NCBI GenBank assembly: GCA_024688885.1
Contig: JAILDV010000053.1
Location: forward strand, 36,988 to 100,987
Origin: Bacteroidaceae bacterium
GTDB lineage: Bacteria > Bacteroidota > Bacteroidia > Bacteroidales > Bacteroidaceae
DNA: 64,000 nt
Direction: 5' to 3'
Made by a program: the position numbers and the translations under genes. Positions 35,735 to 56,229 of this stretch are shown here, in pieces. Each line of letters starts with the position of its first letter. Position 1 is the first letter of the stretch. Under the pieces are notes generated by a model. That model had not been told where the DNA came from. It worked only from the letters and a program-made list of their open reading frames with translations, and made no database searches.

Positions 35735-38700
35735 ATGAAAAAAATCATTCTCACATCCCTCTTCGTCATGCTTGCCGCAGCAGGTTTCGCACAGCGCTTC
35801 ACTGACAAGCTTGACCGTGGACTCGTAGCGGTACCAAGTGGCAATGGAAATTTCGTCAGTTGGCGTGTACTTGGCGAAGAATACTATGATGTGACCTACA
35901 ACCTCTATTGTAATGGTACGAAGATAGCCGAGAACCTTCAGGCATCTAACTACACGCACATTTCAGGCAATGCTTCCAGCAGTTATCAGGTGGCGCCTGT
36001 GGTGCGTGGTGTCGAACAGACAAAGAGCAAGTCTGTGACACGATGGAACAACGGTCACTTCGACATTCCTGTTGCCAAAGTATTGGATCGCAATGGGAAC
36101 GATGTGACTTCCCAATACATCATCAACGACATCTCCTTAGGTGACGTGGATGGTGACGGCATGGTGGAGTTTATGGTGAAGCGCAACTACAAAGGCGACA
36201 TCCTCAATGCCGCCAACACTACCAAGTTCCACCACTACGAATGCTACAAGCTTGACGGTACACGCCTGTGGTGGATAGACCTTGGCCCCAACCTCATGGC
36301 TGGTCCCGATGAACAGTGGGATCTCGTCAGCTACGACTGGGACATGGATGGAAAAGCAGAGTGTCTCATGCGTGGTGCTGACAATATGATTATCCATGCT
36401 GGCGATGGCACAGTCATCAAGGTGGGTAACATGAACTATGTGGCTCCACGTGACGAATACACGCGCAATGGTGCTGAATACCTGCTCTACATGAACGGAG
36501 CCACGGCTGTGCCTTACGATTATCAATCGCAATCAGCGACATACACCCCGATGACATACCCTCTTCCCCGTTTCGAAAGCGATGAAAGTGACTATGCCAC
36601 CGTTTGGGGTAAAAACGACACAGGACACCGTTCGTCCAAGCACTATTTCGGTGCCCCTTATCTTGATGGGCGCAAACCCAGCATCTTCCTTGGACGTGGC
36701 TGTTACAGCCAGCACAAGATGTGTGCGTTGGACGTTGATCCGCAAACTCACCAGCTGAATCAACTCTGGCGTTGGGATGCCACTTCGGGACCTTGGTTTG
36801 GCAATGGTTTCCACAACTTCACCATTGGAGATGTTGACTGGGACGGACGCGATGAAATCATCTTCGGTTCCATGATGATTGACGACAACGGAAAGGGACT
36901 CTGCACCACAGGGCTCGGACATGGCGATGCACAACATTGTGCAGACCTTGACCCTTACCGCAAATACGCAGAGCAGTTCATCTGTAACGAGACACAGCCT
37001 GCCTGCACCTACTACAATGCCACCACTGGCGAAATCTACTACCGTTTGAAATCCACATCAGATGATGGACGTGCGCTATGCGCCAACTTCTCCAATGACT
37101 TTGTGGGCAGCATAGGCAGAAGCACCCAGACAGGCATTGTTTCCACCGTAAAGGATTTGGTGGTGGCAAATGCTCCCGGCGGCACCAACGATGCACTCTT
37201 CTGGCCACACCTTAACCAGCGCATCTATTGGGACGGTGACCTCTGCGATGAAGTGTATGATTCTCCCGGTAGTGCCAATGAAGGACGCGCTGCAGCCATC
37301 TACAAGTATCCATCAGGGCGTCTTTTCAACTCCGACGACTGCCTGACCATCAACGGCACGAAAAACAATGCATGTGCCATTGCCGACATCTTTGGAGACT
37401 GGCGTGAAGAAGTGGTGACGCGTACATCTGACAACAAGAACATCCGCATCTTCACCACGCCCCATGCCACCACTTACCGCATCCCTACCCTCTGGTCTGA
37501 CCACCAGTACCGCAATGCCATGGTGACACAGCCTATCGGATACAACCAACCTCCTCACAAGAGTTACTTCCTTGGTGAACTGGAGGGTATCACTCAGGCT
37601 CCTCCCACCAACACCATGACAGGACGCACCGAGGTGAAAAATGGCGGTACCATCTCCACTACGAGCGACCATCTGATTGTATGTGAGACAAACAACACTA
37701 AAGTGAGCATCCAGGACGGTGCCGCACCCTATATCGTGACCTTCAATGTGCCATCACATGTACAAGGCAATGCAACCAGCGGCACTACCGCAAAGCCTGC
37801 CCCCACTTATCAATACTTCACCTGCGAGGTGACAGGTGGTGGTCTGGCTGGTGATGCCCGTCTCGTAAAACAAGGTGATGGTATCCTCACCTTGCCGAAC
37901 GTGACCATGAAGCACACCGGCAACACTGACGTATGGGCAGGTACTGTCAACTTCAACGGCACATTTCAGAACTCAGCTCTTTGGCTCAACCGCTTTGTAG
38001 AACTGAATTCCAATGGTGGCAAATTCCTCGGTGGCATCAAGGCAGACTACGCCTCCACCATCCGTCCGGGTGGTGAGAACACCATGGGTACCATCACCAC
38101 AACCACCTACACGATGGGCTTTGGTTCACGATTGGCCCTTGATCTCTATTCCGACGGGGTTAAGGCAGACCAAGTGATTGCCGACAAACTTGTCATTGAG
38201 ACCAAACTCAACGAGAAAGTCTGGATGGACTATGGCCCACGCTATCTGCAGCCCGTCATTGAGGTGGTGGAACACTGCAAGGATGGTGCCAAGACCCTCG
38301 AACCTGGCAGCTACATCATCGGTAAGATTGGTGCGGTGTCTGGTTCTCTCAACGACATCAAGATTGAAGGTGTCACCAACCATCGCGCCGTTCTCTCTCT
38401 CAATGCTCAAAACCAGCTCATCCTCACCATCAGTGCCGTGCGTGCTGCAAGCGAGATCGTGTGGACAGGTGCAAACTCTTCCACTTGGGACTTTGCCAAG
38501 ACTGAGAACTTCTACGTAGCAGACGACCAAGCCAAGGCTGCTGACATCTTTGTGAAGGGCGACATTGTCAACTTCACCGATGAAGCCTCCAAGACATCCA
38601 TCGCCATCACTGAAAATCTCGATCCCAAGACGTTTAAGGTAAATGCCTCCAAGAACTACACCATCTCGGGCAATGGAGCCATCACCTCTGGTGCTTTGGT

Positions 38701-40411
38701 GAAAGAAGGCACAGGCACACTGACAATCTCCACTGAAAACTCCTATATGGACGGCAATGCGCTGAAAGGGGGCACAGTCGTAGTTTCCTCGCTTTCCAAT
38801 GAAAACAAAGCGGCAGGCAACTTAGGTGCCGTAACCACTTCTGCAGACCTATTCACCATGGAGAATGGAGCCATGATTCAGACAGCAGCCACGGTCACCA
38901 ATGGTTCGCCCATCAAGTTTGTGGGTGAAAAAGGAGGCGTCATCAGTGCTGATGCCAATAAGGACTTCATCCAAAACAAGGCTCTCTCTGGCACGCTCCT
39001 CACCAAGAAGGGGTCAGGATGGCTCAAGACCTACACCAGCGGTGCCAACCTTAATAGAGTCATCATTGTTGGTGGAGCCATTGACAACTTCTCCGGCAAT
39101 GCCGCCAAAGTCGTCGAGTTCCAAGGTGGAACGCTGATTGATGAGGTAGGCACCAACAATGAACTCAACATACCAAAGGATAAGAAAGGTGCATGGAACA
39201 CCGCCAACCGTTCCACCTACACCAATAAGGTGACAGGAGAAGGCTCCCTCGACATTACTTGTGCAGGAGAGCAGGGAAATGGCTGGGTGGCTACACGCAC
39301 CGCGCTCCAGCTCAACCTCTCTGCCTTCAAAGGCACCATTGTACCACACGCTGCCATCGTTGCTGACAAACGATTCACACTCGACACCAGCAATGGCTCA
39401 GAGAACTGCACCTTCAACATTCCTGAAAATGTCATTGTACAGAACTCAGGTAAGACCTTGCGCATCGGTAAACTGACTGGCAAGGGCACATTGGGTGGTT
39501 TCTGTTCATTCCAGCAGAATGCCACTGTAAGAGCCAACACATGGCAGGTAGGCAATGACAATAACTTCAAGTTCGAAGGCATCGTCACCAGCAACGATAA
39601 CTTCACCAAGATGGGCTCAGGAGAGATGACCGTCACCGGTGCTTGGAACAGCACAGGAGCAGTGAACATCTCTGCCGGCAGCATTCGTTTGGGCACAGGT
39701 GGCTCACTCGGTACAGGCTCACTGACAGTTTCCGAGAACGCCGCACTGACAGGTGTGAGCGACAGCAAGTTGGCACTGACCAACAGCAGCATCACCATCA
39801 ACGGCACTGTCCACCCAGGAGAGTCAGCTACTTCCACTTTAGGCAACATCAATTTGGGTGGCAAGAATGTCACCTTGAGCAAGACAGCTAAAGTGGTTAT
39901 CGGCATCCGCAAGAGTGCCTCTGAAAATTCCATCAACAACTCATACATCAAGGGCATCGGCACCCTGAAGTTGGCAGCAGGCACTACCATTGGTGCTGTC
40001 ATCAGCAAAAACAACTTAGGGAAACTCACCACCGATGAGGCAGTGGCAGACTCCTTCTATGTTTGGACAGACGTGAAGAATGTCAACATCGCAGGTGAGC
40101 TCAACTTCGACCTGCCTGAACTGCCCGTCTATAACTACTGGGACACCAGCCGCATCAGCGAAGGTATCCTTTATGTGAGATGCAATGCCGCCAAGTATCA
40201 GGAATACCTCACAGGCATCAGTGCCATTGATGCAGGAGAAACCGTTGTGGTGGATGTCATCAATACAGGCAGTGTCACAGTCAAGACATTCACCTGCCAG
40301 ATGGGCGATGTGTCCGACACCTTCGCCAAAACACCCCTTCCAAAGGGAATCTACCTGTTACGCATCAAAAGCGAGGCAGGTAAGAAAGGTACGCTCAAAC
40401 TCATGAAATAA
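35735..40411 (+). CDS. PL11 family rhamnogalacturonan lyase fused to autotransporter-type beta-strand repeats and a C-terminal tail
   Basis: DRGLVAVPSGNGNFVSWRVLGEEYYDVTYNLYCNGTKI, DISLGDVDGDGMVEFMVKR, YSQHKMCALDVDPQTHQLNQLWRWD; repeats such as LVKEGTGTLTISTENSYM, FTKMGSGEMTVTGAWNSTGAVNISAGSIRLGTGGSLGTGSLTV. Confidence 0.92.
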   Translation: MKKIILTSLFVMLAAAGFAQRFTDKLDRGLVAVPSGNGNFVSWRVLGEEYYDVTYNLYCNGTKIAENLQASNYTHISGNASSSYQVAPVVRGVEQTKSKSVTRWNNGHFDIPVAKVLDRNGNDVTSQYIINDISLGDVDGDGMVEFMVKRNYKGDILNAANTTKFHHYECYKLDGTRLWWIDLGPNLMAGPDEQWDLVSYDWDMDGKAECLMRGADNMIIHAGDGTVIKVGNMNYVAPRDEYTRNGAEYLLYMNGATAVPYDYQSQSATYTPMTYPLPRFESDESDYATVWGKNDTGHRSSKHYFGAPYLDGRKPSIFLGRGCYSQHKMCALDVDPQTHQLNQLWRWDATSGPWFGNGFHNFTIGDVDWDGRDEIIFGSMMIDDNGKGLCTTGLGHGDAQHCADLDPYRKYAEQFICNETQPACTYYNATTGEIYYRLKSTSDDGRALCANFSNDFVGSIGRSTQTGIVSTVKDLVVANAPGGTNDALFWPHLNQRIYWDGDLCDEVYDSPGSANEGRAAAIYKYPSGRLFNSDDCLTINGTKNNACAIADIFGDWREEVVTRTSDNKNIRIFTTPHATTYRIPTLWSDHQYRNAMVTQPIGYNQPPHKSYFLGELEGITQAPPTNTMTGRTEVKNGGTISTTSDHLIVCETNNTKVSIQDGAAPYIVTFNVPSHVQGNATSGTTAKPAPTYQYFTCEVTGGGLAGDARLVKQGDGILTLPNVTMKHTGNTDVWAGTVNFNGTFQNSALWLNRFVELNSNGGKFLGGIKADYASTIRPGGENTMGTITTTTYTMGFGSRLALDLYSDGVKADQVIADKLVIETKLNEKVWMDYGPRYLQPVIEVVEHCKDGAKTLEPGSYIIGKIGAVSGSLNDIKIEGVTNHRAVLSLNAQNQLILTISAVRAASEIVWTGANSSTWDFAKTENFYVADDQAKAADIFVKGDIVNFTDEASKTSIAITENLDPKTFKVNASKNYTISGNGAITSGALVKEGTGTLTISTENSYMDGNALKGGTVVVSSLSNENKAAGNLGAVTTSADLFTMENGAMIQTAATVTNGSPIKFVGEKGGVISADANKDFIQNKALSGTLLTKKGSGWLKTYTSGANLNRVIIVGGAIDNFSGNAAKVVEFQGGTLIDEVGTNNELNIPKDKKGAWNTANRSTYTNKVTGEGSLDITCAGEQGNGWVATRTALQLNLSAFKGTIVPHAAIVADKRFTLDTSNGSENCTFNIPENVIVQNSGKTLRIGKLTGKGTLGGFCSFQQNATVRANTWQVGNDNNFKFEGIVTSNDNFTKMGSGEMTVTGAWNSTGAVNISAGSIRLGTGGSLGTGSLTVSENAALTGVSDSKLALTNSSITINGTVHPGESATSTLGNINLGGKNVTLSKTAKVVIGIRKSASENSINNSYIKGIGTLKLAAGTTIGAVISKNNLGKLTTDEAVADSFYVWTDVKNVNIAGELNFDLPELPVYNYWDTSRISEGILYVRCNAAKYQEYLTGISAIDAGETVVVDVINTGSVTVKTFTCQMGDVSDTFAKTPLPKGIYLLRIKSEAGKKGTLKLMK

Positions 40412-40426
40412 ACATTCATTTAACCT

Positions 40427-42094
40427 ATGAAAACAGACATAGAAATCGCACGTGAATGTAAGCTGAGTCCCATTGAGGAGATTGCAGCATACATTCAGAT
40501 TCCCACCGATGAACTTGAGCATTACGGCAAGTACATCGCCAAGGTGCCCACGCACCTCATTGACGAAAAGAAGATGGCGAAAAGCAACCTTATCCTTGTC
40601 ACAGCCATCACCCCCACCAAAGCAGGCATTGGCAAAACCACTGTCAGCATTGGGCTTTCCCTTGGATTGAACAAGATAGGAAAGAAGGCGGTGTGTGCCC
40701 TGCGTGAACCCTCATTAGGCCCTTGCTTCGGTGTGAAGGGAGGTGCAGCAGGAGGTGGCTATGCACAGGTGCTGCCTATGGAGAAAATCAATCTCCATTT
40801 CACAGGCGATTTCCATGCTGTCACCACAGCCACCAACATGATTGCAGCCCTGCTGGACAACTATCTCTTCCAGCACCGTGATGATGGCTTTGCGCTCAAG
40901 GAAGTGCTGTGGAAACGTGTGCTTGATGTGAATGACCGCAGCTTGCGCAACATCGTGACAGGGCTTGGTCCTAAAACTGATGGTATCCCTGCAGAGACCG
41001 GATTTGACATCACGCCTGCTTCCGAGATCATGGCGATTCTTTGTCTCTCCAAAGACCTCGACGACCTGCGCAGACGCATTGACAATATCCTCCTTGGCAT
41101 CAAGATGGACGACACACCCTTCTATGTCAGAGACATGGGTGTAGGAGGCGCCATCACAGTGTTGCTCATGGATGCCATCAAGCCCAATCTTGTGCAGACC
41201 ACAGAGCAGACTCCTGGTTTCGTGCATGGAGGACCTTTCGCTAATATCGCCCATGGATGCAACACACTCCTTGCCACACAAATGGCAATGACTTTTGCTG
41301 ATTACGTGGTGACAGAAGCGGGCTTCGGTGCTGACCTTGGCGCAGAGAAGTTCTTCGACATCAAGTGCCGCAAGAGCGGGCTACAACCCAAACTCACCGT
41401 CATCGTTGCCACCACACAAGGGCTCAAGATGCATGGAGGAGTTCCTATAGAAGCCATCAAGGAACCAAACATGGAGGGACTTGCCAAGGGCTTTGACAAC
41501 TTGGATCGTCACATCCGCAACTTGAAAGGGTTTGGACAGAGCGTGGTGGTTGCTTTCAATCGCTTCGACACCGATGCAGAAGAGGAGATAGAACTCGTGC
41601 GCCAGCATTGCAACAGCATTGGTGTGGGATTCGCCATCAACAATGCCTTCCACGAAGGAGGAGAAGGGGCAAAGGAATTGGCACAGTTGGTAGTAGATAC
41701 CATAGAACAGCAACCCTCGCATCCGCTCACCTACACCTATGCAGACAACGACTCCATCAAGACAAAAGTGGAGAAGGTGTGCCGCAAGATATACGGGGCT
41801 TCCAGTGTCTCGTATGGCAAGACAGCAGAAGCAGCGTTACTGCGCATCCAGAAGTTGGGGCTCGAGCACTACCCTGTCTGCATTGCCAAGACACAATTCT
41901 CGTTCTCCGCAGACAAGAAACTGTATGGAAGTCCTCGAGACTTCAACATCAAGATTCGTGACTTTGTCATCAATACGGGTGCAGAGATGATTGTCGCCAT
42001 CGCAGGTGACATCATGCGAATGCCAGGATTGGCGAAGTCACCGCAAGCGGAACGCATCAACATCGTTGACGGGTTGATAGAAGGGCTGTCATAA
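40427..42094 (+). CDS. fhs: Formate--tetrahydrofolate ligase
   Basis: [74 protein letters not shown]. Confidence 0.98.
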
Positions 42095-42244: not shown

Positions 42245-42281
42245 AAAAAAGGGTGGAACCATGCGGCTCCACCCTTTTTTT
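42245..42281 (-). terminator. Rho-independent terminator of the 42305-46522 gene
   Basis: AAAAAAGGGTGGAACCATGCGGCTCCACCCTTTTTTT; fully paired (one G-U) on the minus strand, one A-C mismatch on plus. Confidence 0.8.
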
Positions 42282-42304
42282 ATAGAATTGTTAATTCTGT
42301 CGGA

Positions 42305-45300
42305 TTACTTGATTGCAACACCAGCAGCGTTGTACTTCACACCGTTCTTCACGATAACGATCTGACCATTGATGAAGTACTTGCCATCCTTAACAGCGTC
42401 TTCTGCAGTCTCAACGCCTTCGATAGCAGTTGCAGTTGCCTTGTGCTTGTAGATGCCATAAACCTTCATGTCGAATGGATAGCCACCAGGCCAGAGTGTC
42501 AGAACACAAATCTGTGGGAGAACGTCGTCCTTGATAGCGCACTTCGCATCATCAGCAAATACATACTTATATTCAGTAGCACCTTCTGGAATTTCCACAT
42601 TGTCTGTGCCACCCTGTGCCCAGAATGCGATGTTCCAACCCTTAGGAGCAGGCTGAGCGAACTTCACTGTTACATAGTCGCAGTCCTTCACGTCGATGTC
42701 ATACATCTTGAACGCAACCTGAAGGTCAGCAGAAGCTGTGTAAGTATTGAAGTCTGCACCTTCCTCAACTGCTGTACGAGCAAATGTGTCAAGATCCTTA
42801 CCCTGATCCTGTGCAATCTCTTCGAAGTCTGCATAGTCTGGATCAGTTTCAGGCTTTGGCAGATACTCTTCTTCTCCAGACTCAACAGCCTTGAAGGTAG
42901 CAGTTACCGTCACAGCAGCAGCAGGCATCGTGAAGGTGTTGTCATCAGCCACCTCTACAGGAGTTTCGCCAGCAGCGACAGAGAGTGCGTCAAGCTCATA
43001 GCCCTCAGCAGGAGAGATGGTGAGAGTCACCTTGGCACCCTCAGCAGCCTCAGTCACATTTGCAGAAACAGAACCGTTCTCAGCCTCAGTAATGGTGATA
43101 GCGTAAGTAGGAACATATTCTTCAAACTTAACGTTTCTGAACTTATAAGTGATAGGATCTGCATTATTAGAAAGATCCACGCAGTACTGGTCAACCTGAC
43201 GGCTTGAATAAGGAGCACCAGCGTTTGACTTAACATTCTCTGTGTTCAGGATGCGCTCGATGGTGATCCACTTGTCTTGTTCAGTGATTTCAAGTTTAGC
43301 ACTTGCACTTGGTGCAGCATTAGCACCCCAACCCTTACCGGTAGCGGTAGCCTGATAGCTTTCAGGAGCAGAAACAACCTGATCAGCCATAACCTCGAAG
43401 GTCATCTTAGTAGTCTTGCCTACCCATTCGTCTGGAATCTGAATCCAAATCTGGCTGTTGTAAGGCTGGCTTGGGCTAGCGTTAGACACAACCTGTACAT
43501 AGCCACCTTCAGCTACGTAATTAGCCAATGGGTGTGGAGTGTCAGTGTCAGTATAAGTAGCAGTTGGATCCAAATAGTCCTTTGCACGGATTTCCTGAGC
43601 ATAGTACCAGTCAGCCTTGTACTCTTCAACCTGAACGTCATCGATGTAGAAGTTGTTAGAAGTACCATTCTTCTCGCTGAGGTTGAACACAACGCTCACG
43701 AAGTTGGTTGGATGACCGTTACCAGCTTCAACCTTCAGAGACACCTTCTTCCATTCAGTGGTTACATCTATTTGACCAAAGCCAAGATAACCATTTGAAG
43801 CATTGTTATAATCCCAATCAACACCGTGACCCTGAGTAGCAATGGTCTGAGCGCGGTCAGCTCTGATGCGGAATGAGAGAGCAAGAGGAGTAGATTCCTC
43901 AGTCATTGGCTCGTCACTTACCTTCATCCAGAACTGAGACCAATAATCCTCACCAGCATTGTTGTCAGTAGTAACTACGATGCAACCATTGCCAGTTGTC
44001 TTATCTTCCAGTTCGAAACGAGGAATTTCACGGATAAGCTTACCCTGTTCGTCCTTTTCAATGCGACCACCGTCCTCTTTACCCTTGTAGTCAACCACGC
44101 GGAAGTTGTCTGCAACGAACCATGCGTCTGGCGTGATAGGTGTAGCAGACTCGACAAAGGTAGCGCTAACAGTAACAGGGAATGCAGGCATAGTGAACAC
44201 ACCCTCAGCAGACACCTCTACATCCTTGTCCTCAGTACCATCATTGTAAGTAACATAGAAAGCTTTCAGTTCATAAGTTACAACAGGAGTAGCCTCCAGA
44301 GTAACCTTGGCACCCTCAGCAGCCTTCTTAAGGCCATCCTTCACAGCTACAGTACCGTTCTCGATACCATCAGCAATAGTGATGTCATACTTAGCAGCTG
44401 GGAGGTAAGCCTCAACTGTGGCGAGCTTCATCTCCTCAACGTTAACCGTTGTGTTCCATGAAGAAGCCTTAATGGCGTTCAGGTGAACAAAACCCTTGTC
44501 AGCCTTGAACTTAGCGAGGTCGTAAACGATAACACCATTCTCATTGCTTACAACATAGTCAGCATCGTTAGCATAAACAAGGATGTTATTGGCATCATTT
44601 TGGTTGAAGAACAAACGTGGTTCACCAGATGCTGCAACGATTGTGAGGTAATCCCAGTCACCGAGGTCAGCAAACTGTGTTGCTGTGCCTGCGTTGATAT
44701 CGCTGTTACCATATACACAACCTGTTTCTTTATTCAAATCATAAGCACAATTAGGATTGTCAGGATCTGCGATAGTTGCCTCGGCATCGTAGCCTGTCCA
44801 CTTGTGGAACATGTCAGCAGCAAGGTCTGCAACCTCAGCTTTTACAGGGATGTAAGGCTTAACTGTAGCAAGCTTCATCTCTGCAACATTTGCTTTTGTG
44901 TTCCATGAAGAAGCCTTGATAGAGTTCAGGTGAACGAAACCTACAGCTGCCTTGATAGCAGCAAGATTGTAAACGATGACACCATCCTCGTTGCTCACCA
45001 CATAGTTCGCATCGTTGGTGTTCACTTGAATGCGGTCGCTGCCACCCTTGCTGTTGAGGAACATACGGGGCTGGTCGTCAGTATTCAAAACAACTGTGAG
45101 ATAATCCCATGCAGAGAGGTCTGCATACTCGAATTCTGTCACGTTCGTGTTACCGTATGGGCAGTCAGTCTCAGCGTCCAGATTGATCGCGCCACCATTT
45201 TCATCGGGATCTGCCACTGTAGCTTCAGCATCGAAACCAGTCCACTTGTGGAACATGTCAATAGCCAAGTCAGCAACTTTCGCCTCTGTGCCTTGTTCTT

Positions 45301-46522
45301 CTCCACCTTCTTTCTCCTTGAAGGTAGCAGTCACAGTCACGGCAGCAGCAGGCATGGTGAAGGTATTGTCGTTAGCCACTTCTACAGCAGTTTCACCAGC
45401 AACAACAGAGAGTGCGTCAAGCTCATAGCCCTCAGCAGGAGTGATGGTGAGAGTCACCTTGGCACCCTCAGCAGCCTTCTTAAGGCCATCCTTCACAGCT
45501 ACAGTACCGTTCTCGATACCAGCAGCAATAGTGATGTCATACTTAGTAGCTGGGATGTAAGGCTCAACAGTAGCGAGCTTCATTTCCTCAACAACAGCTT
45601 TTGTGTTCCATGAAGATGCCTTAATGGCATTCAGGTGAACAAAGCCGCGAGCTTCCTTAATGGCTGCGAGATTAATGACATACACGCCATCACCCTTGTT
45701 CTCAACGTAAGGATCAGAAGCATTTGCAGTTGCGACAGTGAGACGTCCGCCATCCACACTACTGTCATTGAAGAACAAACGGGGGTTGTCAGAAGTCACA
45801 ACGAGTGTGAGATAATCCCATGCAGTAAGGTCTGCAAAATCTTGTCCTATCACACCTGTGTTACCATAAGGGCAATCGGTCTCAGTGTTAAGTTTAACGC
45901 CTCCATCGGGAGCATCTGGGTCTGCGATAGCAGCATCAGCCTCAACACCAACCCATCTGTGATACATGTCTGCAGACAGATCTGCAACCTCAGCTTTTAC
46001 AGGGATGTAAGGAGCGCCCTTGGCAAGCTTCATTGCTGAAACAACAGCTTTTGTGTTCCATGAAGATGCCTTAATGGCATTCAGGTGAACAAAACTGCGA
46101 GCTTCCTTGATGGCTGCGAGATTAATGACATACACGCCATCACCCTTGTTCTCAACGTAAGGATCAGAAGCATTTGCAGTTGCGACAGTGAGACGACCGC
46201 CACCCACACTACTGTCGTTGAAGAACAAACGGGGGTTGTCAGAAGTCACAACGAGTGTGAGATAATCCCATGCAGTAAGGTCTGCAAAATCTTGTCCTAT
46301 CACACCTGTGTTACCGTAAGGGCAATCGGTCTCAGTGTTAAGTTTAACGCCTCCATCGGGAGCATCTGGGTCTGCGATAGCAGCATCAGCCTCAACACCA
46401 ACCCATCTGTGATACATGTCTGCAGACAGATCCGCCACTTCCGTGGGTTTCTGTCCATACGCCACACCTGCCACCATCAGTAACAGGAGCGTAAGAAAAG
46501 ATTGTGTAATCTTTTTCAACAT
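42305..46522 (-). CDS. Large secreted multi-domain protein: four copies of a ~140-150 aa CBM-like module, three InlB-B-repeat-like units, CBM4/9-like modules, C-terminal tail
   Basis: Repeats of ADLSADMYHRWVGVEADAAIADPD...FVHLNAIKASSWNTKAVV; YDITIAAGIENGTVAVKDGLKKAAEGAKVTLTITPAEGYELDALSV...FTMPAAAVTVTATF. Confidence 0.8.
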   Translation of the reverse strand: MLKKITQSFLTLLLLMVAGVAYGQKPTEVADLSADMYHRWVGVEADAAIADPDAPDGGVKLNTETDCPYGNTGVIGQDFADLTAWDYLTLVVTSDNPRLFFNDSSVGGGRLTVATANASDPYVENKGDGVYVINLAAIKEARSFVHLNAIKASSWNTKAVVSAMKLAKGAPYIPVKAEVADLSADMYHRWVGVEADAAIADPDAPDGGVKLNTETDCPYGNTGVIGQDFADLTAWDYLTLVVTSDNPRLFFNDSSVDGGRLTVATANASDPYVENKGDGVYVINLAAIKEARGFVHLNAIKASSWNTKAVVEEMKLATVEPYIPATKYDITIAAGIENGTVAVKDGLKKAAEGAKVTLTITPAEGYELDALSVVAGETAVEVANDNTFTMPAAAVTVTATFKEKEGGEEQGTEAKVADLAIDMFHKWTGFDAEATVADPDENGGAINLDAETDCPYGNTNVTEFEYADLSAWDYLTVVLNTDDQPRMFLNSKGGSDRIQVNTNDANYVVSNEDGVIVYNLAAIKAAVGFVHLNSIKASSWNTKANVAEMKLATVKPYIPVKAEVADLAADMFHKWTGYDAEATIADPDNPNCAYDLNKETGCVYGNSDINAGTATQFADLGDWDYLTIVAASGEPRLFFNQNDANNILVYANDADYVVSNENGVIVYDLAKFKADKGFVHLNAIKASSWNTTVNVEEMKLATVEAYLPAAKYDITIADGIENGTVAVKDGLKKAAEGAKVTLEATPVVTYELKAFYVTYNDGTEDKDVEVSAEGVFTMPAFPVTVSATFVESATPITPDAWFVADNFRVVDYKGKEDGGRIEKDEQGKLIREIPRFELEDKTTGNGCIVVTTDNNAGEDYWSQFWMKVSDEPMTEESTPLALSFRIRADRAQTIATQGHGVDWDYNNASNGYLGFGQIDVTTEWKKVSLKVEAGNGHPTNFVSVVFNLSEKNGTSNNFYIDDVQVEEYKADWYYAQEIRAKDYLDPTATYTDTDTPHPLANYVAEGGYVQVVSNASPSQPYNSQIWIQIPDEWVGKTTKMTFEVMADQVVSAPESYQATATGKGWGANAAPSASAKLEITEQDKWITIERILNTENVKSNAGAPYSSRQVDQYCVDLSNNADPITYKFRNVKFEEYVPTYAITITEAENGSVSANVTEAAEGAKVTLTISPAEGYELDALSVAAGETPVEVADDNTFTMPAAAVTVTATFKAVESGEEEYLPKPETDPDYADFEEIAQDQGKDLDTFARTAVEEGADFNTYTASADLQVAFKMYDIDVKDCDYVTVKFAQPAPKGWNIAFWAQGGTDNVEIPEGATEYKYVFADDAKCAIKDDVLPQICVLTLWPGGYPFDMKVYGIYKHKATATAIEGVETAEDAVKDGKYFINGQIVIVKNGVKYNAAGVAIK
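45551..46450 (-). repeat. Near-identical 450-bp tandem duplication within the large CBM-like gene
   Basis: ttgtgttccatgaagatgcc occurs at 45601 and 46051 with nearly identical flanks; period 450 bp = 150 codons. Confidence 0.85.
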
Positions 46523-46830
46523 AGTTTTTTAAGTTTTAGTTAAATGAAATTGGTTAATTAAAGAAATGTGTAAAACAGTGATTGTCAATCGCCGGCAAAG
46601 ATACGACGTTCCTTGAAAAAGCTGGAAATTATCCTGTTACAAAAATTTGTTCCCATGTTACGTAAATTCAAATTTTTCGAACAGTTCCCCTTAAAACACA
46701 AATTGTTATCTATTAGAAAACTGATGCAACATAGGGAAAAGCGATTTCTGTGAAAAGTCCGTAACTTTGCACCCAGAAAAGCAAATAAGATTTAGTTAGT
46801 AAAAAAGTTGATTATTATTAGTATGAAATC

Positions 46831-46859
46831 CTCCTTCGTGAGAAGGGGGAGTTTTTTTT
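46831..46859 (+). terminator. Rho-independent terminator-like hairpin in a large intergenic region
   Basis: tcctccttcgtgagaagggggagtttttttt: 9-bp stem, GTGA loop, T8. Confidence 0.65.
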
Positions 46860-47039
46860 AGTTCGGGTGCTAGATGAACATTCCCACATGTGTCAAAGTC
46901 ACTCCCCCACAAGGGACAAGCTGAGACTTCCACAAAGACTGCTTTGCGTAGCCCATAAGGACTAAGCTGCGTCCCCCACAAGGACAGTGCATCTTTCGGA
47001 ACACCACGGGGAATTATTGGCTCACTTGCATAATCCCGT

Positions 47040-47600
47040 GTATAGGTTTGAATACATCCTATAAATCTGCTGAATCAGCTTAATCATCCCAAAGGAGTAT
47101 GTTTTATATCAACAAGTTCCTGCGTAACGATTGAGCGAAGGTGAACGGAGTTTTAATATTTTCAACCACGAATTGAACCGATTATGCTGATTTTTTGTTT
47201 ATGGATATAGCATTACCCAGATTAGAGTCGTGGATGACTCTTGCTACCATCCGGACGGGCTTTTTTGTGTCACACAGATAGCACAGATATTCACAGATTA
47301 TTTTTAATAACTCAACTTTCGGAAGTTATAAAAACCACTCACAGTTTTTTAACAACGAACCTTTATCACGCCGCGCAAGGCGTTTCATCCGTGCCATCTG
47401 TGCAATCCGTGTGGACTTTTACATCTCTCACGGATTCCACTGATTCCACAGATTTTTGTTTGACCCCCTTTACATTTCTCATTTATCATTTAGCGCCGCG
47501 CAAGGCGTTTCTTCTGCTAAATCGGCTTAATCCGTGGTTTTATTACTTACGAGTGGCTTTGTTTAAGACAGACACGGGGTTTTACAAGTAAACTGAATTA
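47040..47600. repeat. Composite intergenic repeat block, homologous to 55480-55810 and partly to 53560-53700
   Basis: Shared TTAATCATCCCAAAGG.GTATG...AACAAGTTCCTGCG.AACGATTGAGCG; ATTAGAG..GACTCTTGC.A..ATCCGGA.GG; GTTTAAGACAGACAC. Confidence 0.8.
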
Positions 47601-47649
47601 ATTCCCCTTTTTTCTTTTGTGATTCAAAGACAGTAAATATCTTCACATC

Positions 47650-47686
47650 AAAAAAGGGGTGGAACCATGCGGCTCCACCCTTTTTT
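47650..47686 (-). terminator. Rho-independent terminator of the 47710-52449 gene
   Basis: AAAAAAGGGGTGGAACCATGCGGCTCCACCCTTTTTT, near identical to 42245-42281. Confidence 0.8.
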
Positions 47687-47709
47687 ATAGAATTGTTAAT
47701 TCTGTCGGA

Positions 47710-50700
47710 TTACTTGATTGCAACACCTGCTGCGTTGTACTTCACACCGTTCTTCACGATAACGATCTGACCATTGATGAAGTACTTGCCATCCTTAACA
47801 GCGTCTTCTGCAGTCTCAAGACCTTCGATAGCTGTTGGGATTGGGAGAGCTGGCTTTTCACCTGCATAACCAAGCTTAATCTCTGTAACAGTAGTGTTAG
47901 CCCAGTTAGCGCCCTTGATAGCGTGGAGGTGAGCGAAGCCGTATTCAGCTACGATAGCAGCAATGTCGATGACGTAAGTCTTGGAACCGTCGCCATTGTC
48001 AACAACAGTCTCATACTTATCCTTATCGCGTGGAACTTCTGCAAATACAGTACCTTCATTTTCGATGCGGTTGAAGAGGAGACGAGGCTCACCCTCAGTA
48101 GCTGTCAACTCGATAGTGTTGTAAGCAGAGAGGTCTGCGAATCTGTCATGGTTAACAGTGCTCAAACCATAAGGCTGACCTGTAGATGTACCAATGTTGT
48201 AATCACAGTTAGAAGCTTCAATAGGCTCTGCAGTTTCATCAGCAGCATTCCAATGGAAGAACATCTCCTTAGTCAAGTCGGTGTAAGCGAGTGCAGGAGC
48301 ATCCTTCTTTAGACCTGCGATAGCGTCAGTGATAGCCTGAGCAGCAGCAGTGAGAGACTCAGCAGTAGCCTCTGCATTGGCGAGTTCAGCCTTGGCAGCA
48401 GCGATAGCGTCTGTCAGAGCCTGGAAGCTCTCCTCAGTGTACTGACCATCCTCGTTGCTGTAGCTTCTACCCTCGTGTGCAGCCTCGTTGGCAGCGAGAG
48501 TCTCAGCCCAAAGAGTAGTCTCGTCAGCTGTAGCAGTAGCAGCCTCGATGGCAGCCTTGTCGTCGTTGACAATCTGAACCTTGATGTTAGAGAATCCATA
48601 AGTGGTAGCATCAGCAACTGCGAGGTTGAATGCAATAGTGCGCATATCATCTGGGGCAGTCAAGTACTCCTGGAAGTGAACAGCGTCTACTGATGGGTCT
48701 GTCTTAACTGAGCTTATGTTAGCCTTCCACTCACCAGGTTCTCCGTGAGCTGCAATAGCAAGTGTATTGATATGCTCTGCATAGAGGTCAAACTCAAGGT
48801 TGAACTTCTTGCCCTTTGGCAGAACGTATGGCAGACGAACAAAGAACTGAGCATCGTAGTCATTGCCACCAACTGAGCCGTCTTCATTAGTTGGACGTGC
48901 AACAGTTTCGATGCCAATTTCACCATATTGATTCTTCTCAGCCAGAAGCATCTCTGGATCCTCAACATCGTTGTTCTTCAGAATGAACTCGCTCATGTCG
49001 TCAGTAGAGAGGTCACCATTCTTAAGGATGTTTTCAGACCAGTCAAGAGTAGTTGGATCAACATACTCATAGATTGGGTATTCAGTAGCGGAGAGGTAGT
49101 CAGGAGCAACTTCTTTGCCTTCTGTATCCTTGATTGGGAGCGTACCAGAAGGAACCTGAACTCTGATATTATCGATGAATACGATAGCATTTGGCTGACC
49201 AGACTGTGCCATATCAAACACGTCCCAACGGAGACCGTTGTCACGGCTAATCTTATATTCGTCAGAATAGTGCAGCCAAGTATTTACTTCACCTTCCTTC
49301 ACTGTCATAGCCTTTGTGCCACCTGATGCATAAGAACCAACGCCGCCATCCCATGACTGAGTGCCGAAGTTTGCTGTAGCGTTAACCATGTAGTCGAACT
49401 CAATTCTATACTTTGTACCGTTTGGCAACTGATATGGGAAACGGATCTCAAACTGGCTGTCCCAGTTAGCAGAACCACCTTGTGTGCGGAATTCAATACC
49501 GTACTTGCTATCTTTACCAGCACCTTCTACGATACGAGCTCTGTGAGTGTCATCTGCTGCGATAACATTCTCCTTAGAGAGGAAGTAGAATATCTCATCA
49601 TCAGCGCCAGTGTAACCAGCTTCGAAGTCCTGAAGAGGAATCAGGTCAACCCAGTCAAGAACTGGAGCCTCTGTCCAAGTAGCAGAAACTTCGTCAATCA
49701 GATAAGTGATAGGATTAGCATCCTGTGAAAGGTCGATTGAGTAGCATGTAGGAACACCCTTGTCATATTCAGAGATATCCAATGTCAGTTCAACGGGTGT
49801 CCATTCACCAACCGTGAACTTAGCAGCAGGAGCACCGGCCATCCAGTTAGCGCCATCATATGAACCGTGGAAACCGCCACCAGCCTGAATCTCAGTGCCA
49901 GCAGCAAGAGTTTCTGTTGCAAGAGCCTTGATCTTGAACGACAGCTTCACTGTCTCGTTCTTCTTCAAAGCCTTAGATGGAGCAACGTCAGCAATCTGGA
50001 AGAAGAACTGAGTCTCGTAAGTCTGTTCCTGCTTACCAGCAGCTGTCACTTCGAAGTAACCGCCTTCTTCGCCACCAGTACCGAAGCTATATGTTGGAGC
50101 ATTGTTTGTATCTGGTTGCTTTTCACCTTCAACGAATGGAGTAACCTTCACACGATAAGCCATTGTTTCAGTCCAAGCCTCTTCTGCGTCTTCAAATTTC
50201 ACGTTTCTGAACTTGTAAGTGATAGCTTCTTTGTCACCACTTGCCTCAGACAGATCCAGACAATACTGGTCAGCCTGCAAGTCTTTCCAAGTACCAGTTG
50301 ATTTAACGCCATTAGTCTTGAGAACACGTTCAACTGTAGTCCATTCACCAACAGTGAATTCGACACCGTTGCCAGGACCAGGGTTACAACCCCAACCGTT
50401 ACCAGTTGCTGTTGCCTGGAAGCTCTCTGGACACTTGATAGCCTTAGAAGCCTGAACTTCCATGGTCATCTTAGTGCTTGTTCCAACATACTTCTCAGGA
50501 ATAGCAATCCAAAGCTGGCTGTTGTAAGTCTGACCTGCATTAGCATTAGAGATAACCTCTACATAACCACCCTCTGCATCAGAAACGAAGCGAGCAGCTG
50601 GATGTGGATCTTGGCCATCAGAGTATGAAGCAGCTGGATCCTTATAGTCCTTAGCGTGGAACTCATTGTTGAGATACCACTCAGAACCTCTTACAATCTG

Positions 50701-52449
50701 AACATCGTCGAAGTAGAATGTTCTATCAGCATCTGAAGCAGCCAGGTTGAAGCAAAGGTCTGTAAAGCCAGCTCTCGCATCATCAGCTATACAAACAAAT
50801 GTTACAGTCTGCCATTCTTTTGTTACATTCAGAGTGCCAAAGCCGTCATTGGACACGTGCTGGAAAGCTTTATGAGTCTGAGATCCAGCGGAATATTCGC
50901 CATCAGCCTTCACACGCATTGTAACTTTGAATCCTGTTCCAGAAGCAAAGCCTCCCTTATCATAAACAGCTGTCAATTGAGCCTTATCTTTACCAATATA
51001 GGTAGGCTCAACATACTCAGCACCTCTAATCCAGAACTGAGCATTAGTTGCACTGCTATTTTTGCCTGCAGTCGCTACAATACAGCCATTCGTAACATCA
51101 TCAGGATCTGCTCCCCATACTGCAAAAGTCTTTTCCGTGGACGTTGCAACAGTAGAAGCCTTATCCCTGAAGCAGAAGTCAATTTCATTGAACCACTTGT
51201 CCTTTTCAGGAGCAGTAGGAGCAACAGCTGGCTTAACCAGAGTAAGTTTGAAGTTGTCAACAGTGAACCAACGAGCAGCCATTGGAGCTTCGAAGCTCTT
51301 TACACCAATGCGGATTTTGCCATCAGTCACTTCAATTTCGTCAGTAACATAAGGAACGCGAGTTTCAGAATTCACATCTACAAGCTTAGAAACAGTAGTT
51401 TCACCAACTGTAGCATAAACACCAACTGTAGGCTTGAACTCAGTGTAATCACCACCTTCATTGTTCAAAGAGTTGTACATTTCTGCACTAACAGTGTAAG
51501 TTCCATTTGGAAGACCGGTGATTTCCTGCCAATAATCGAAGGAAGCCTCTGCGCGGTTAGAAGCATTACCTGCCCAATATTCGAAATCACCACCATGATC
51601 AGGACCATTACCGCCAAGAGGCTTTTCACAAGTCCAACCATCCTTAGCACCGCAATCGAAGTTAGCAATAACACGAGTGAAATCAGAACCAGCAGCTGTC
51701 TGAGTCTTTGCAAGCGCTGGAAGAGCAGCTTCCACCTTCTGAGCATCAGCAAGTGCATCAGCAGATTTATCAGGATCGATACCAGCAATAGCAGCATCGT
51801 ACTCTGCTGATGTTGCACCCTTCTTCTTCATAGCTTCACCTTCTGCGAGGAGAGCCTTCAGAGCTGGTACATAAGTGATCGATACAGGAACAAAAGCAAA
51901 GTAAACAGCTTCTTCCTTATTAGCTGTACCACCATCTGCACCCTTGTAAAGACCTGTACCAATGTTCTTCAGAGAGAAACCTTTTCCCTCTACAAACTGA
52001 ACATCCCATACTGCACCATAGTCGATGTCTTGACCCAGCTTCTTGGCTGTGATACCCAAGTTGAAGCAGCACCAACCGCCCTTATCCTGAGAGTTCAGAT
52101 ACTTACCTCCCCAATCTGAAGTTGGAACTGGCGTTCCATTAGGAGCCACAAGATGGAGAAGATAATAACCATGGACAGACTCGTCTTCGTTTTCAGCCAA
52201 ACTTTCGAGCTGCCACGTGTAACCAGAATTTGTTGTAACAAACGCGCTACCATACGCGTCGAAAGCCAAATTCTGGTTGTTTGAGCCAAACAGTGCCTTT
52301 TCAGCAGCCTTGTCAACAATCGCAAATGTCTTGCCGTCAAGAGCTGCAACACTGGTAAACTCATCACCAAGTTGGACAGTTGGTGTAATAGCAGCATTTG
52401 CCACCATCGCAACTACCATTGTCAGGAGAAATGTAAATAATTTTCTCAT
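47710..52449 (-). CDS. Very large secreted multi-CBM-like protein (CBM4/9-type modules, FIVAR-like region, module shared with the 42305 protein, same C-terminal tail)
   Basis: 1579 aa; repeated WIRGAEYVEPTYIG..., FYFDDVQIVRGSEWYLNNEFHAKDYKDPAASYSDGQDPHPAARFV...YKFRNVKFED; AIEGLETAEDAVKDGKYFINGQIVIVKNGVKYNAAGVAIK. Confidence 0.8.
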   Translation of the reverse strand: MRKLFTFLLTMVVAMVANAAITPTVQLGDEFTSVAALDGKTFAIVDKAAEKALFGSNNQNLAFDAYGSAFVTTNSGYTWQLESLAENEDESVHGYYLLHLVAPNGTPVPTSDWGGKYLNSQDKGGWCCFNLGITAKKLGQDIDYGAVWDVQFVEGKGFSLKNIGTGLYKGADGGTANKEEAVYFAFVPVSITYVPALKALLAEGEAMKKKGATSAEYDAAIAGIDPDKSADALADAQKVEAALPALAKTQTAAGSDFTRVIANFDCGAKDGWTCEKPLGGNGPDHGGDFEYWAGNASNRAEASFDYWQEITGLPNGTYTVSAEMYNSLNNEGGDYTEFKPTVGVYATVGETTVSKLVDVNSETRVPYVTDEIEVTDGKIRIGVKSFEAPMAARWFTVDNFKLTLVKPAVAPTAPEKDKWFNEIDFCFRDKASTVATSTEKTFAVWGADPDDVTNGCIVATAGKNSSATNAQFWIRGAEYVEPTYIGKDKAQLTAVYDKGGFASGTGFKVTMRVKADGEYSAGSQTHKAFQHVSNDGFGTLNVTKEWQTVTFVCIADDARAGFTDLCFNLAASDADRTFYFDDVQIVRGSEWYLNNEFHAKDYKDPAASYSDGQDPHPAARFVSDAEGGYVEVISNANAGQTYNSQLWIAIPEKYVGTSTKMTMEVQASKAIKCPESFQATATGNGWGCNPGPGNGVEFTVGEWTTVERVLKTNGVKSTGTWKDLQADQYCLDLSEASGDKEAITYKFRNVKFEDAEEAWTETMAYRVKVTPFVEGEKQPDTNNAPTYSFGTGGEEGGYFEVTAAGKQEQTYETQFFFQIADVAPSKALKKNETVKLSFKIKALATETLAAGTEIQAGGGFHGSYDGANWMAGAPAAKFTVGEWTPVELTLDISEYDKGVPTCYSIDLSQDANPITYLIDEVSATWTEAPVLDWVDLIPLQDFEAGYTGADDEIFYFLSKENVIAADDTHRARIVEGAGKDSKYGIEFRTQGGSANWDSQFEIRFPYQLPNGTKYRIEFDYMVNATANFGTQSWDGGVGSYASGGTKAMTVKEGEVNTWLHYSDEYKISRDNGLRWDVFDMAQSGQPNAIVFIDNIRVQVPSGTLPIKDTEGKEVAPDYLSATEYPIYEYVDPTTLDWSENILKNGDLSTDDMSEFILKNNDVEDPEMLLAEKNQYGEIGIETVARPTNEDGSVGGNDYDAQFFVRLPYVLPKGKKFNLEFDLYAEHINTLAIAAHGEPGEWKANISSVKTDPSVDAVHFQEYLTAPDDMRTIAFNLAVADATTYGFSNIKVQIVNDDKAAIEAATATADETTLWAETLAANEAAHEGRSYSNEDGQYTEESFQALTDAIAAAKAELANAEATAESLTAAAQAITDAIAGLKKDAPALAYTDLTKEMFFHWNAADETAEPIEASNCDYNIGTSTGQPYGLSTVNHDRFADLSAYNTIELTATEGEPRLLFNRIENEGTVFAEVPRDKDKYETVVDNGDGSKTYVIDIAAIVAEYGFAHLHAIKGANWANTTVTEIKLGYAGEKPALPIPTAIEGLETAEDAVKDGKYFINGQIVIVKNGVKYNAAGVAIK

Positions 52450-53808: not shown

Positions 53809-54532
<724 letters not shown>

Positions 54533-54549
<17 letters not shown>

Positions 54550-55360
54550 AATGCTGGCAGTAGTTAGCTTTGAGGTCTGTTTTCTCGTTGCAGCGGGGGC
54601 ATCTTCCGTTCTTGCCCTTCTTCTTGGTCTCGTCTATCATGGTGGCTGACACAATGCCGGTGGGGACAGCGATGATGGTGTAACCAAGTATCATGACCAC
54701 ACTGGAGAGGAGACGCCCGACAAGGGTGACAGGAGTGATGTCGCCATATCCCACGGTGGTGAGGGTGACGATTGCCCAGTAGATGCTGGTGCCGATGTCG
54801 GTGAATTGTGTGCCAGGCTGTCCTCCTTCAACCATAAACATCAGAGTTCCGATGATGGTGACGAGTATGAGCACGAAGAGAAAATAGACAAGTATCTTGC
54901 GGAAACTCAGGCGAATGCTCTGAAGAAGCAGATGACCTTCGTTGATGAAGGAGAAGAGCTTGAGCACACGGAAAATGCGCAGGAGACGGAACACTCGCAA
55001 GATGAAAAAGTAGCGTGCGGAAGATAGATAAGGAATGAAGGAAAGATAGAGCGGCAAGGTTGCCAAGAGGTCTATGATGCCAAAGAAACTGAGGGCATAA
55101 TCTTTAGGACGTGGCGAACAATAGAGCCGGAGAATGTATTCGATGGTAAAGAAAAAAGTGAGGACATACTCCATGATGGTGAGCACATCCTTGAAACGTC
55201 CCATCACAGCGGGTTTCGTCTCGATGAACGCCACAATGAGACTGAGGACAATCGCCACCATGACAGCGAGATCGAATGCCTTGCCAGCTTTCGTGTCGGA
55301 ATTGAACACGATATTGTAGAGGCGTGGCTTGTCTTTGAGCAATGCAAAAAACCTTTTCAT
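54533..55360 (-). CDS. Voltage-gated-type potassium channel with C-terminal zinc ribbon
   Basis: TVGYGDITPV selectivity filter, S4-like SSARYFFILRVFRLLRIFRVLKL, C-terminal CPRCNEKTDLKANYCQHCGERL; start at MKRFFALLKDKP rather than the longer track ORF. Confidence 0.9.
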
Positions 55361-56229
55361 ACTGCAAAGATACGAAAAAGTTGACAGTTGACAGTTGACA
55401 GTTGACAGTTTTTTTCTATTCAGATGTATTTTTAGGGAATATGGCTCGACTTTCCGGTTCACCAGTAAAACCCTGTGTGGGGATTTAGATAAATCCCATA
55501 AATCTGCTGAATCAGCTAAATCATCCCAAAGGGGTATGTTTTTATATAAACAAGTTCCTGCGGAACGATTGAGCGGATTAAACAGATTTTTGCTTATGGG
55601 TAAGCCATTACTCGGATTGATTCTGATTAATCGGATTAGAGCCTCGCGCGGCTCTTGCAACTATCCGGATGGACTTTCGCCAAGAAAGGGGAAATCTGCA
55701 ATCTGTCATAATCGGAGTAAATAAATCTGAATCAGCTAAATCCGCGGTTTTATTACTTGAGAGTGTTTTTGTTTAAGACAGACACAGGTGTTTACGAGTG
55801 AGCCGACTTTCCGAAGTAGTTAAGTAGTTAAGCCGATACCGATTTACAATTTGACCATTTACAATGTACAATTTATTTGGCAATTTGAGAATTGAGCAAT
55901 TGAGAACCTTAGAGCTCGGCGTAGCCAATTAGGCTAACGCGGTGCGTACACCCCGCATGGCAACTCCTCACTCCTAATTCCTCATTCCTCATTCGCTATA
56001 GCTGTCAATTGTCAACTGTCAACTTTCTTCGTTTTTGCACACGTTTTTGGTGTGGTGTGCAATTATTTTTGTCATTTATTACACAGAAAGGCAAAGTGTG
56101 TGTAAAATGCTCATTTTTATGTGTTTTTTATTTGTTCAAACCGCAATTTGTCTGTAATTTTGAACTCGAAAAGCAGCACCTCCTGTGTGGAGTGTGCATT
56201 TTTCATGGAGTAAAGAGAAAGAAAGAGAT

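Follow-up and report, generated by a model that had tools for sequence, protein, structure and literature searches.

Two giant modular proteins of a gut Bacteroidales bacterium as probable glycan-binding adhesins with a sorting-like C-terminal tail

What can two adjacent giant genes do for a gut bacterium when their products are built of repeated modules and show no recognisable enzyme? This question is raised by a locus of a herbivore-gut Bacteroidales bacterium, in which the original prediction had placed two neighbouring reading frames of 1405 and 1579 aa at 42305-52449 of the window (the whole stretch of 64,000 nucleotides that was analysed). Both are present there on the minus strand, as protein A (42305-46522) and protein B (47710-52449). 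We consider it quite likely that they are non-catalytic, multi-CBM glycan-binding proteins, exported by the type IX system, hypervariable, and most likely acting as adhesins on plant cell-wall polysaccharide. A and B probably hold the cell onto plant-fibre sugars, because they bring together many sugar-binding domains, no recognisable enzyme, a probable export tag and domain swapping. Their parts are ordinary (CBMs and InlB repeats) and the whole is unusual, in that it includes a sorting-like tail and a module absent from current libraries; a search of the open-access literature returned no description of the pair or of its tail.

Both proteins are modular, as had been proposed, with repeats far beyond chance. 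HMMs built from the module copies themselves give for A the order X-X-InlB-X-X-InlB-CBM4-CBM4-InlB-Xp-tail. Its signal peptide (MLKKITQSFLTLLLLMVAGVAYG-QKP) is read as ...GVAYG-QKP, which fits the Bacteroidetes Q-rule (PMC5837995). There follow modules X1 (aa 29-168; 46019-46438; HMM 5.3e-49) and X2 (aa 179-318; 45569-45988; 1.3e-50), 95% identical to each other over 440 bases, an InlB-B-like repeat (aa 329-405; 45308-45538), X3 (aa 416-553; 44864-45277; 4.6e-51), which shares 97% aa identity with the copy in the sister genome G029, X4 (aa 564-702; 44417-44833; 1.1e-53), and a second InlB-B-like repeat (aa 713-808; 44099-44386, borders approximate) delimited by the Pfam match and the module HMMs. 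The C-terminal half consists of two CBM4/9-like modules (aa 817-965, 43628-44074, and aa 975-1133, 43124-43600), found by HMM and by profile comparison with the PDB, a third InlB-B-like repeat (aa 1140-1213; 42884-43105) with 92% DNA identity to the first, module Xp (aa 1233-1360; 42443-42826; 2.3e-63) and the tail (aa 1365-1405; 42308-42430), located with a tail profile. The InlB-B-repeat-like units noted earlier are borne out by an above-cut-off Pfam match of A to Flg_new_2 (123 bits, 4.5e-36), which covers three stretches including the third repeat.

Protein B, read with HMMs made in the same way, has the order TREF-helical-CBM61-CBM4x5-helix-X-tail, and its orthologue in G029 (L040) is 60% identical over the full length. 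Its signal peptide is MRKLFTFLLTMVVAMVANAA; in both proteins the peptide, as read from the sequence, is devoid of a lipobox cysteine. The N-terminal TREF domain (aa 29-186; 51892-52365; HMM 8.4e-68) is trefoil-like by eye only, has no PDB sequence match, and is poorly modelled, with a pLDDT of 65 overall that is too low for a fold verdict. It is followed by a linker with helices in the predicted model (aa 187-246; 51712-51891), the CBM61-like module (aa 247-406; 51232-51711), and five CBM4/9-like modules assigned by HMM (aa 420-585, 50695-51192; aa 590-752, 50194-50682; aa 773-922, 49684-50133; aa 931-1103, 49141-49659; aa 1135-1303, 48541-49047). The proposed FIVAR-like region (aa 1325-1385; 48295-48477) is modelled as a single long helix, and its Pfam score of 17.5 bits stays below the cut-off of 29.2. 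B ends with one module X (aa 1389-1527; 47869-48285; HMM 2e-54; model pLDDT about 97) and the tail (aa 1539-1579; 47713-47835), which was recognised by the tail profile and in the model.

The CBM4/9-like assignment of the modules, two in A and five in B, is made firmer by profiles: compared with the PDB, they match CBM4-2 of laminarinase 16A (1gui; 1.7e-9, over most of the module) and a GH10-associated CBM (4mgq; 1.7e-5), single modules mostly falling below the Pfam CBM_4_9 cut-off. They differ from known members of family 4 in that up to five stand in a row in the pair, with no enzyme attached. The B segment at aa 247-406 matches by profile the arabinogalactan endo-beta-1,4-galactanase 9fli (3.4e-18) and TmCBM61 (2xom; 1.2e-8), and Foldseek with the N-terminal model of B, whose overall confidence is low, recovers CBM22, CBM61, CBM6 and CBM4 structures with a probability of 1.00 for the top ones. 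The likeness to CBM61, a galactan-binding family, extends from the profile to the beta-sandwich fold. However, known CBM61 members are part of galactanases, and the B module, a predicted binder, retains some of the tryptophans aligned with TmCBM61 and lacks one tryptophan stretch. Homology to CBM61 and CBM4 is not enough to define the ligands of these modules. The original prediction did not include this CBM61-like module, the TREF domain or Xp, nor what the tail is likely to mean, nor the module exchange described below.

The module shared by both proteins, which had been singled out as new, is our module X, with four copies in A and one in B. It has no significant match in Pfam, among PDB sequences or, by Foldseek, among PDB folds, and could not be placed in any described CBM family or fold. 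Scanning genomes with a narrow X alignment (a broad one contained no conserved blocks) identified 69 loci, all in Bacteroidales and nearly all labelled as MAGs or uncultured; those with a source in the record title come from herbivore gut, mostly ruminant. No match to X was found in phage records. X is present in a conserved family of about 1240 aa in Prevotella, with the order X-CBM4-about 650 aa unassigned-CBM61-type A CTD, and X or Xp occurs in the same chain as GH98 and a dockerin (L063), an esterase-like domain and a dockerin (L061), or CotH (L206, L210). The window itself encodes a CotH-kinase protein (2438-4765, minus strand) with X at aa 578-717 and a type A CTD. Relatives combine X with GH98, esterase-like and CotH domains; it is accordingly a candidate new CBM that may bind carbohydrate, such enzyme company being expected for a CBM. 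Xp, with no match among PDB sequences, is also carried by a type A CTD protein located beside SusD in the same genome (L225). We saw no silent cassettes in this genome, where other module copies are scattered only (Xp in C17, X in the CotH protein).

Two further features of these X-bearing families were observed. The CotH-kinase protein of the window has chitobiase-like domains, then a C-terminal X, then the classic type A CTD, and CotH-X proteins adjoin the 1240-aa family in L206 and L210. The latter is widespread (L165-L219, e.g. L166:5923-9642), and its middle part of about 650 aa, with no Pfam or PDB match, could be a new catalytic domain.

A and B end, as predicted, with the same tail: 40 of 41 residues are common to both (97.6% identity), with the motif GKYxENGKIVIxKNGxKYNxxGxxIK. 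A profile built from 19 tails matches three proteins of this genome, namely A, B and one GH10-CBM6 xylanase. Among relatives, about 80 proteins end with the tail, a few residues from the stop codon (a few loci being counted under two ids). They range from 265 to 2435 aa in length, and none of them has a dockerin or a type A CTD in addition. A simple signal-peptide test detects a signal-peptide-like N-terminus in 71 of the 74 complete ones, and the cargo includes GH10+CBM6, PL10, pectinesterase, M6 peptidase, BspA LRR (LRR_5) and CotH proteins. As 279 of 295 genomes in an order-wide sample have SprA, co-occurrence at that scale is uninformative, and a family-level sample was therefore used: SprA is present in all 37 tail genomes versus 144 of the 219 genomes of the family (hypergeometric 2.9e-8, a value that ignores phylogeny, with 15 of the 37 from one genus). 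Another genus, in which SprA is patchy, includes a single genome with the tail (G504), and this genome has SprA. The genome studied here encodes both SprA and PorU.

None of the type A CTD models (TIGR04183, PF18962) matches A or B even at E<=1, Pfam and NCBIfam miss the tail altogether, and profile-profile comparison with the type A CTDs of relatives gives an hhalign probability of 9%, which is not significant; we thus rejected the idea that the tail is a classic CTD of type A, B or C. Because of this lack of significant profile similarity, the link of the tail to type IX secretion rests on position, distribution and replacement. The last is illustrated by two homologues (L146 and L075) that share 41% identity over 1017 aa as far as the C-terminal signal, which at the same position is the tail in one and a type A CTD in the other. 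Like type A sorting domains, the tail is C-terminal, follows a signal peptide upstream, accompanies the same kinds of cargo, is strand-rich and usually has a basic last residue. At about 20-40 aa it is also near the size of the minimal type A signal (PMC10202324), the last 22 residues of type A CTDs being sufficient for GFP export (PMC10202324, PMC4804311). A and B have a Sec signal peptide and a conserved C-terminal domain, and are encoded in a genome with the translocon, as is expected of type IX cargo. The tail is therefore a probable type IX-like sorting signal outside the known CTD classes, and this behaviour supports the surface location originally proposed for the pair.

Four genomes are rich in tail proteins: G258 and G315, from other families of the order, with 25 and 7, and G361 and G419, from another genus of the same family, with 14 and 15. 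In these the tail may be a main export signal.

The original prediction had placed the pair in a hemicellulase-rich region. This holds only in part, the nearest neighbours being a PL11 rhamnogalacturonan lyase (35735-40411, plus strand), a formate-THF ligase (40427-42094, plus strand; 83-98.5% DNA identity in relatives that have the gene) and, on the other side, phosphopantetheinyl transferase and ion channel genes (53809-55660, minus strand), the ligase and the latter genes being named from sequence. These genes are conserved flanks. A giant gene occupies the same slot in ten congeneric loci, as far as contigs reach: PPTase, ion channel and AMP-ligase genes border it on one side, and formate-THF ligase, frequently together with PL11, borders the opposite side. 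There is one giant gene where a single contig spans the slot (L045, L050), and one also in L048, whose contig continues past the gene before ending on the PPTase side. Two are present in our window, and both have a counterpart in G029, where they lie on different contigs. No plasmid matches were found for the A-B intergenic and B DNA. Separately, a PATR-type (autotransporter-like) repeat lies in an extension of about 900 aa of the PL11 lyase, whose C-terminus is weakly type A-like; this combination looks unusual.

Comparison with G029 indicates that the content of the slot is a mosaic. Its flanking genes are 93-98.5% identical in DNA to those of the window, while protein identities along B are 97% for TREF, 95% for CBM61, 49, 83, 33, 20 and 66% for the successive CBM4 modules, 35% for X and 93% for the tail. 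The sister A protein (L041) has no CBM4 modules. Module X4 of A is 75% identical to the B-type X of the sister genome versus 64% to its A-type X, and a 3' block made of tail and terminator is common to A (42245-42432) and B (47651-47837, with a terminator hairpin at 47657-47680), with 181 of 188 bases identical. Exchange between the paralogues A and B is therefore likely. We also observed that L041 starts with tandem copies of a further unassigned module (L041:1631-4942, aa 30-440); a 482-aa protein encoded in another Prevotellaceae genome (L195) shares 72% identity with it.

Exchange appears to reach across species as well. Measured in 120-base windows, single modules are 80-100% alike in more distant species; immediately beyond them identity drops to the level of unrelated sequence, and the edges lie close to module borders. 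G036 (L044) shares the signal peptide and most of TREF at 97-100%, with flanking genes at 73-85%. G032 shares CBM4 module 1 of B at 80-95% (L046), with flanks at 76-86%, and X at 82-99% (L047), with PL11 at 81% and formate-THF ligase at 85%. The genomes include metagenome-assembled ones, repeats may lead to assembly errors, and the giant gene is where several contigs end; a single chimeric join would not account for the L044 and L046 segments, however, since both of their edges lie inside the contig. The slot is best read, on the sequence comparisons, as a probable recombination hotspot in which modules are exchanged between related species.

The most obvious competitor of a multi-CBM adhesin is a cellulosome-like scaffold, in which X would be cohesin-like and dock the dockerin-ended proteins of the genus, A and B gathering enzymes. 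In line with this, about ten of the best 50 Foldseek matches of X are cohesin or scaffoldin structures, and dockerins are encoded in 34 of the 45 genomes of the genus, with 14 to 24 in some. All these fold matches are non-significant, however (best E-value 0.089, none below 0.001), Pfam recognises no cohesin family in A or B, and X shares a chain with GH98 or an esterase plus a dockerin, as would be expected of a CBM. Moreover, G044 has X (L049) and no dockerin match at 97% completeness, and the present genome has two dockerins only. A cellulosomal scaffoldin is thus not supported, and we regard such a role as very unlikely; of the "scaffold or adhesin" originally suggested, a glycan-binding surface protein or adhesin is what the data best support, and no match to a described scaffold family was found. 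As a side observation, six genomes of the same genus (G003, G014, G025, G035, G037, G042) have 10 to 24 dockerin type I matches each, and where examined (G003, G025) the module-bearing proteins have a dockerin at the C-terminus in place of a type IX tail. It is likewise highly improbable that A and B are enzymes whose catalytic domain, in TREF or X for instance, has escaped recognition. The poor model of TREF and its lack of a PDB match leave room for one, the model being too poor to exclude it by fold. However, TREF is about 160 aa long and matches no catalytic family, X is repeated up to four times in a protein and also accompanies real enzymes, and the majority of the remaining modules match families without catalytic activity. 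Neither protein has a catalytic family match in Pfam or NCBIfam, on which ground a catalytic domain was rejected, in agreement with the lack of a glycosidase signature noted before, and no catalytic fold was found.

Alternatively, A and B could be hypervariable surface antigens or phage receptors whose diversity serves escape from phages or host antibodies, glycan binding being secondary. The drop of B modules to 20-49% between nearly identical flanks and the sharpness of the exchanged segments speak for it, and Porphyromonas gingivalis diversifies its type IX adhesins by domain rearrangement (PMC5266723). Yet modules of CBM families, which also accompany plant cell-wall enzymes, are among the exchanged units, and the N-terminal and CBM61-like modules of B are conserved in the sister genome. 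We hold this reading unlikely as the main account; it is compatible with a multi-CBM adhesin and does not exclude it.

For such an adhesin, we propose that Sec would export A and B through an ordinary non-lipoprotein signal peptide, and that the C-terminal 40 residues would then serve as a type IX sorting signal missed by current type A, B and C models, so that the proteins would cross the outer membrane and stay at the surface or be released from it. The CBM4/9-like, CBM61-like and probably the X and Xp modules would bind several glycans, and the InlB-like repeats and helices would serve as spacers. The N-terminal part of B and both tails would be kept. The middle modules would undergo duplication, conversion and exchange, both within the pair and across species, and this turnover would retune glycan specificity or antigenicity. 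What the sequences show directly is the architecture of the pair, the CBM homology, where the tail lies and how it is distributed, and the mosaic DNA; the export route, surface location, binding, ligands and adaptive benefit proposed here are inferred from them. More tentatively, and with somewhat less than even confidence, the tail could be a fourth class of type IX signal with its own cargo in gut Bacteroidales, X a new carbohydrate-binding family, and the locus a system of interspecies module exchange between a kept N-terminal part and tail, all three together. Should the tail indeed serve as a sorting signal, annotation pipelines overlook a class of exported proteins in Bacteroidales of the rumen and gut, xylanases and pectinases among them. 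Module X is an assayable candidate for a new CBM family. At this locus, the exchange of single modules between species can be put to the test, and it would alter the range of plant glycans that a bacterium is able to hold.

The adhesin proteins HagA and the gingipains of P. gingivalis are exported by the type IX system. Like A and B, they are large surface proteins of repeated adhesin domains, without a catalytic domain in the case of HagA, and their domain-level rearrangement and allelic exchange are analogous to what we describe here (PMC5266723). However, their domains are unrelated (cleaved adhesin, DUF2436), they carry a type A CTD and belong to an oral pathogen, and exchange takes place among strains, whereas for A and B it would occur between species and involve modules akin to plant-glycan CBMs. 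Closer in niche are the multimodular type IX cellulases of rumen Ca. Paraporphyromonas, which share with the pair a gut Bacteroidales host, CBMs, a plant-fibre setting and type IX export (putative for A and B), and in which unassigned modules can act as new CBMs; unlike A and B, they bear GH domains and TIGR04183 tails (PMC5831590).
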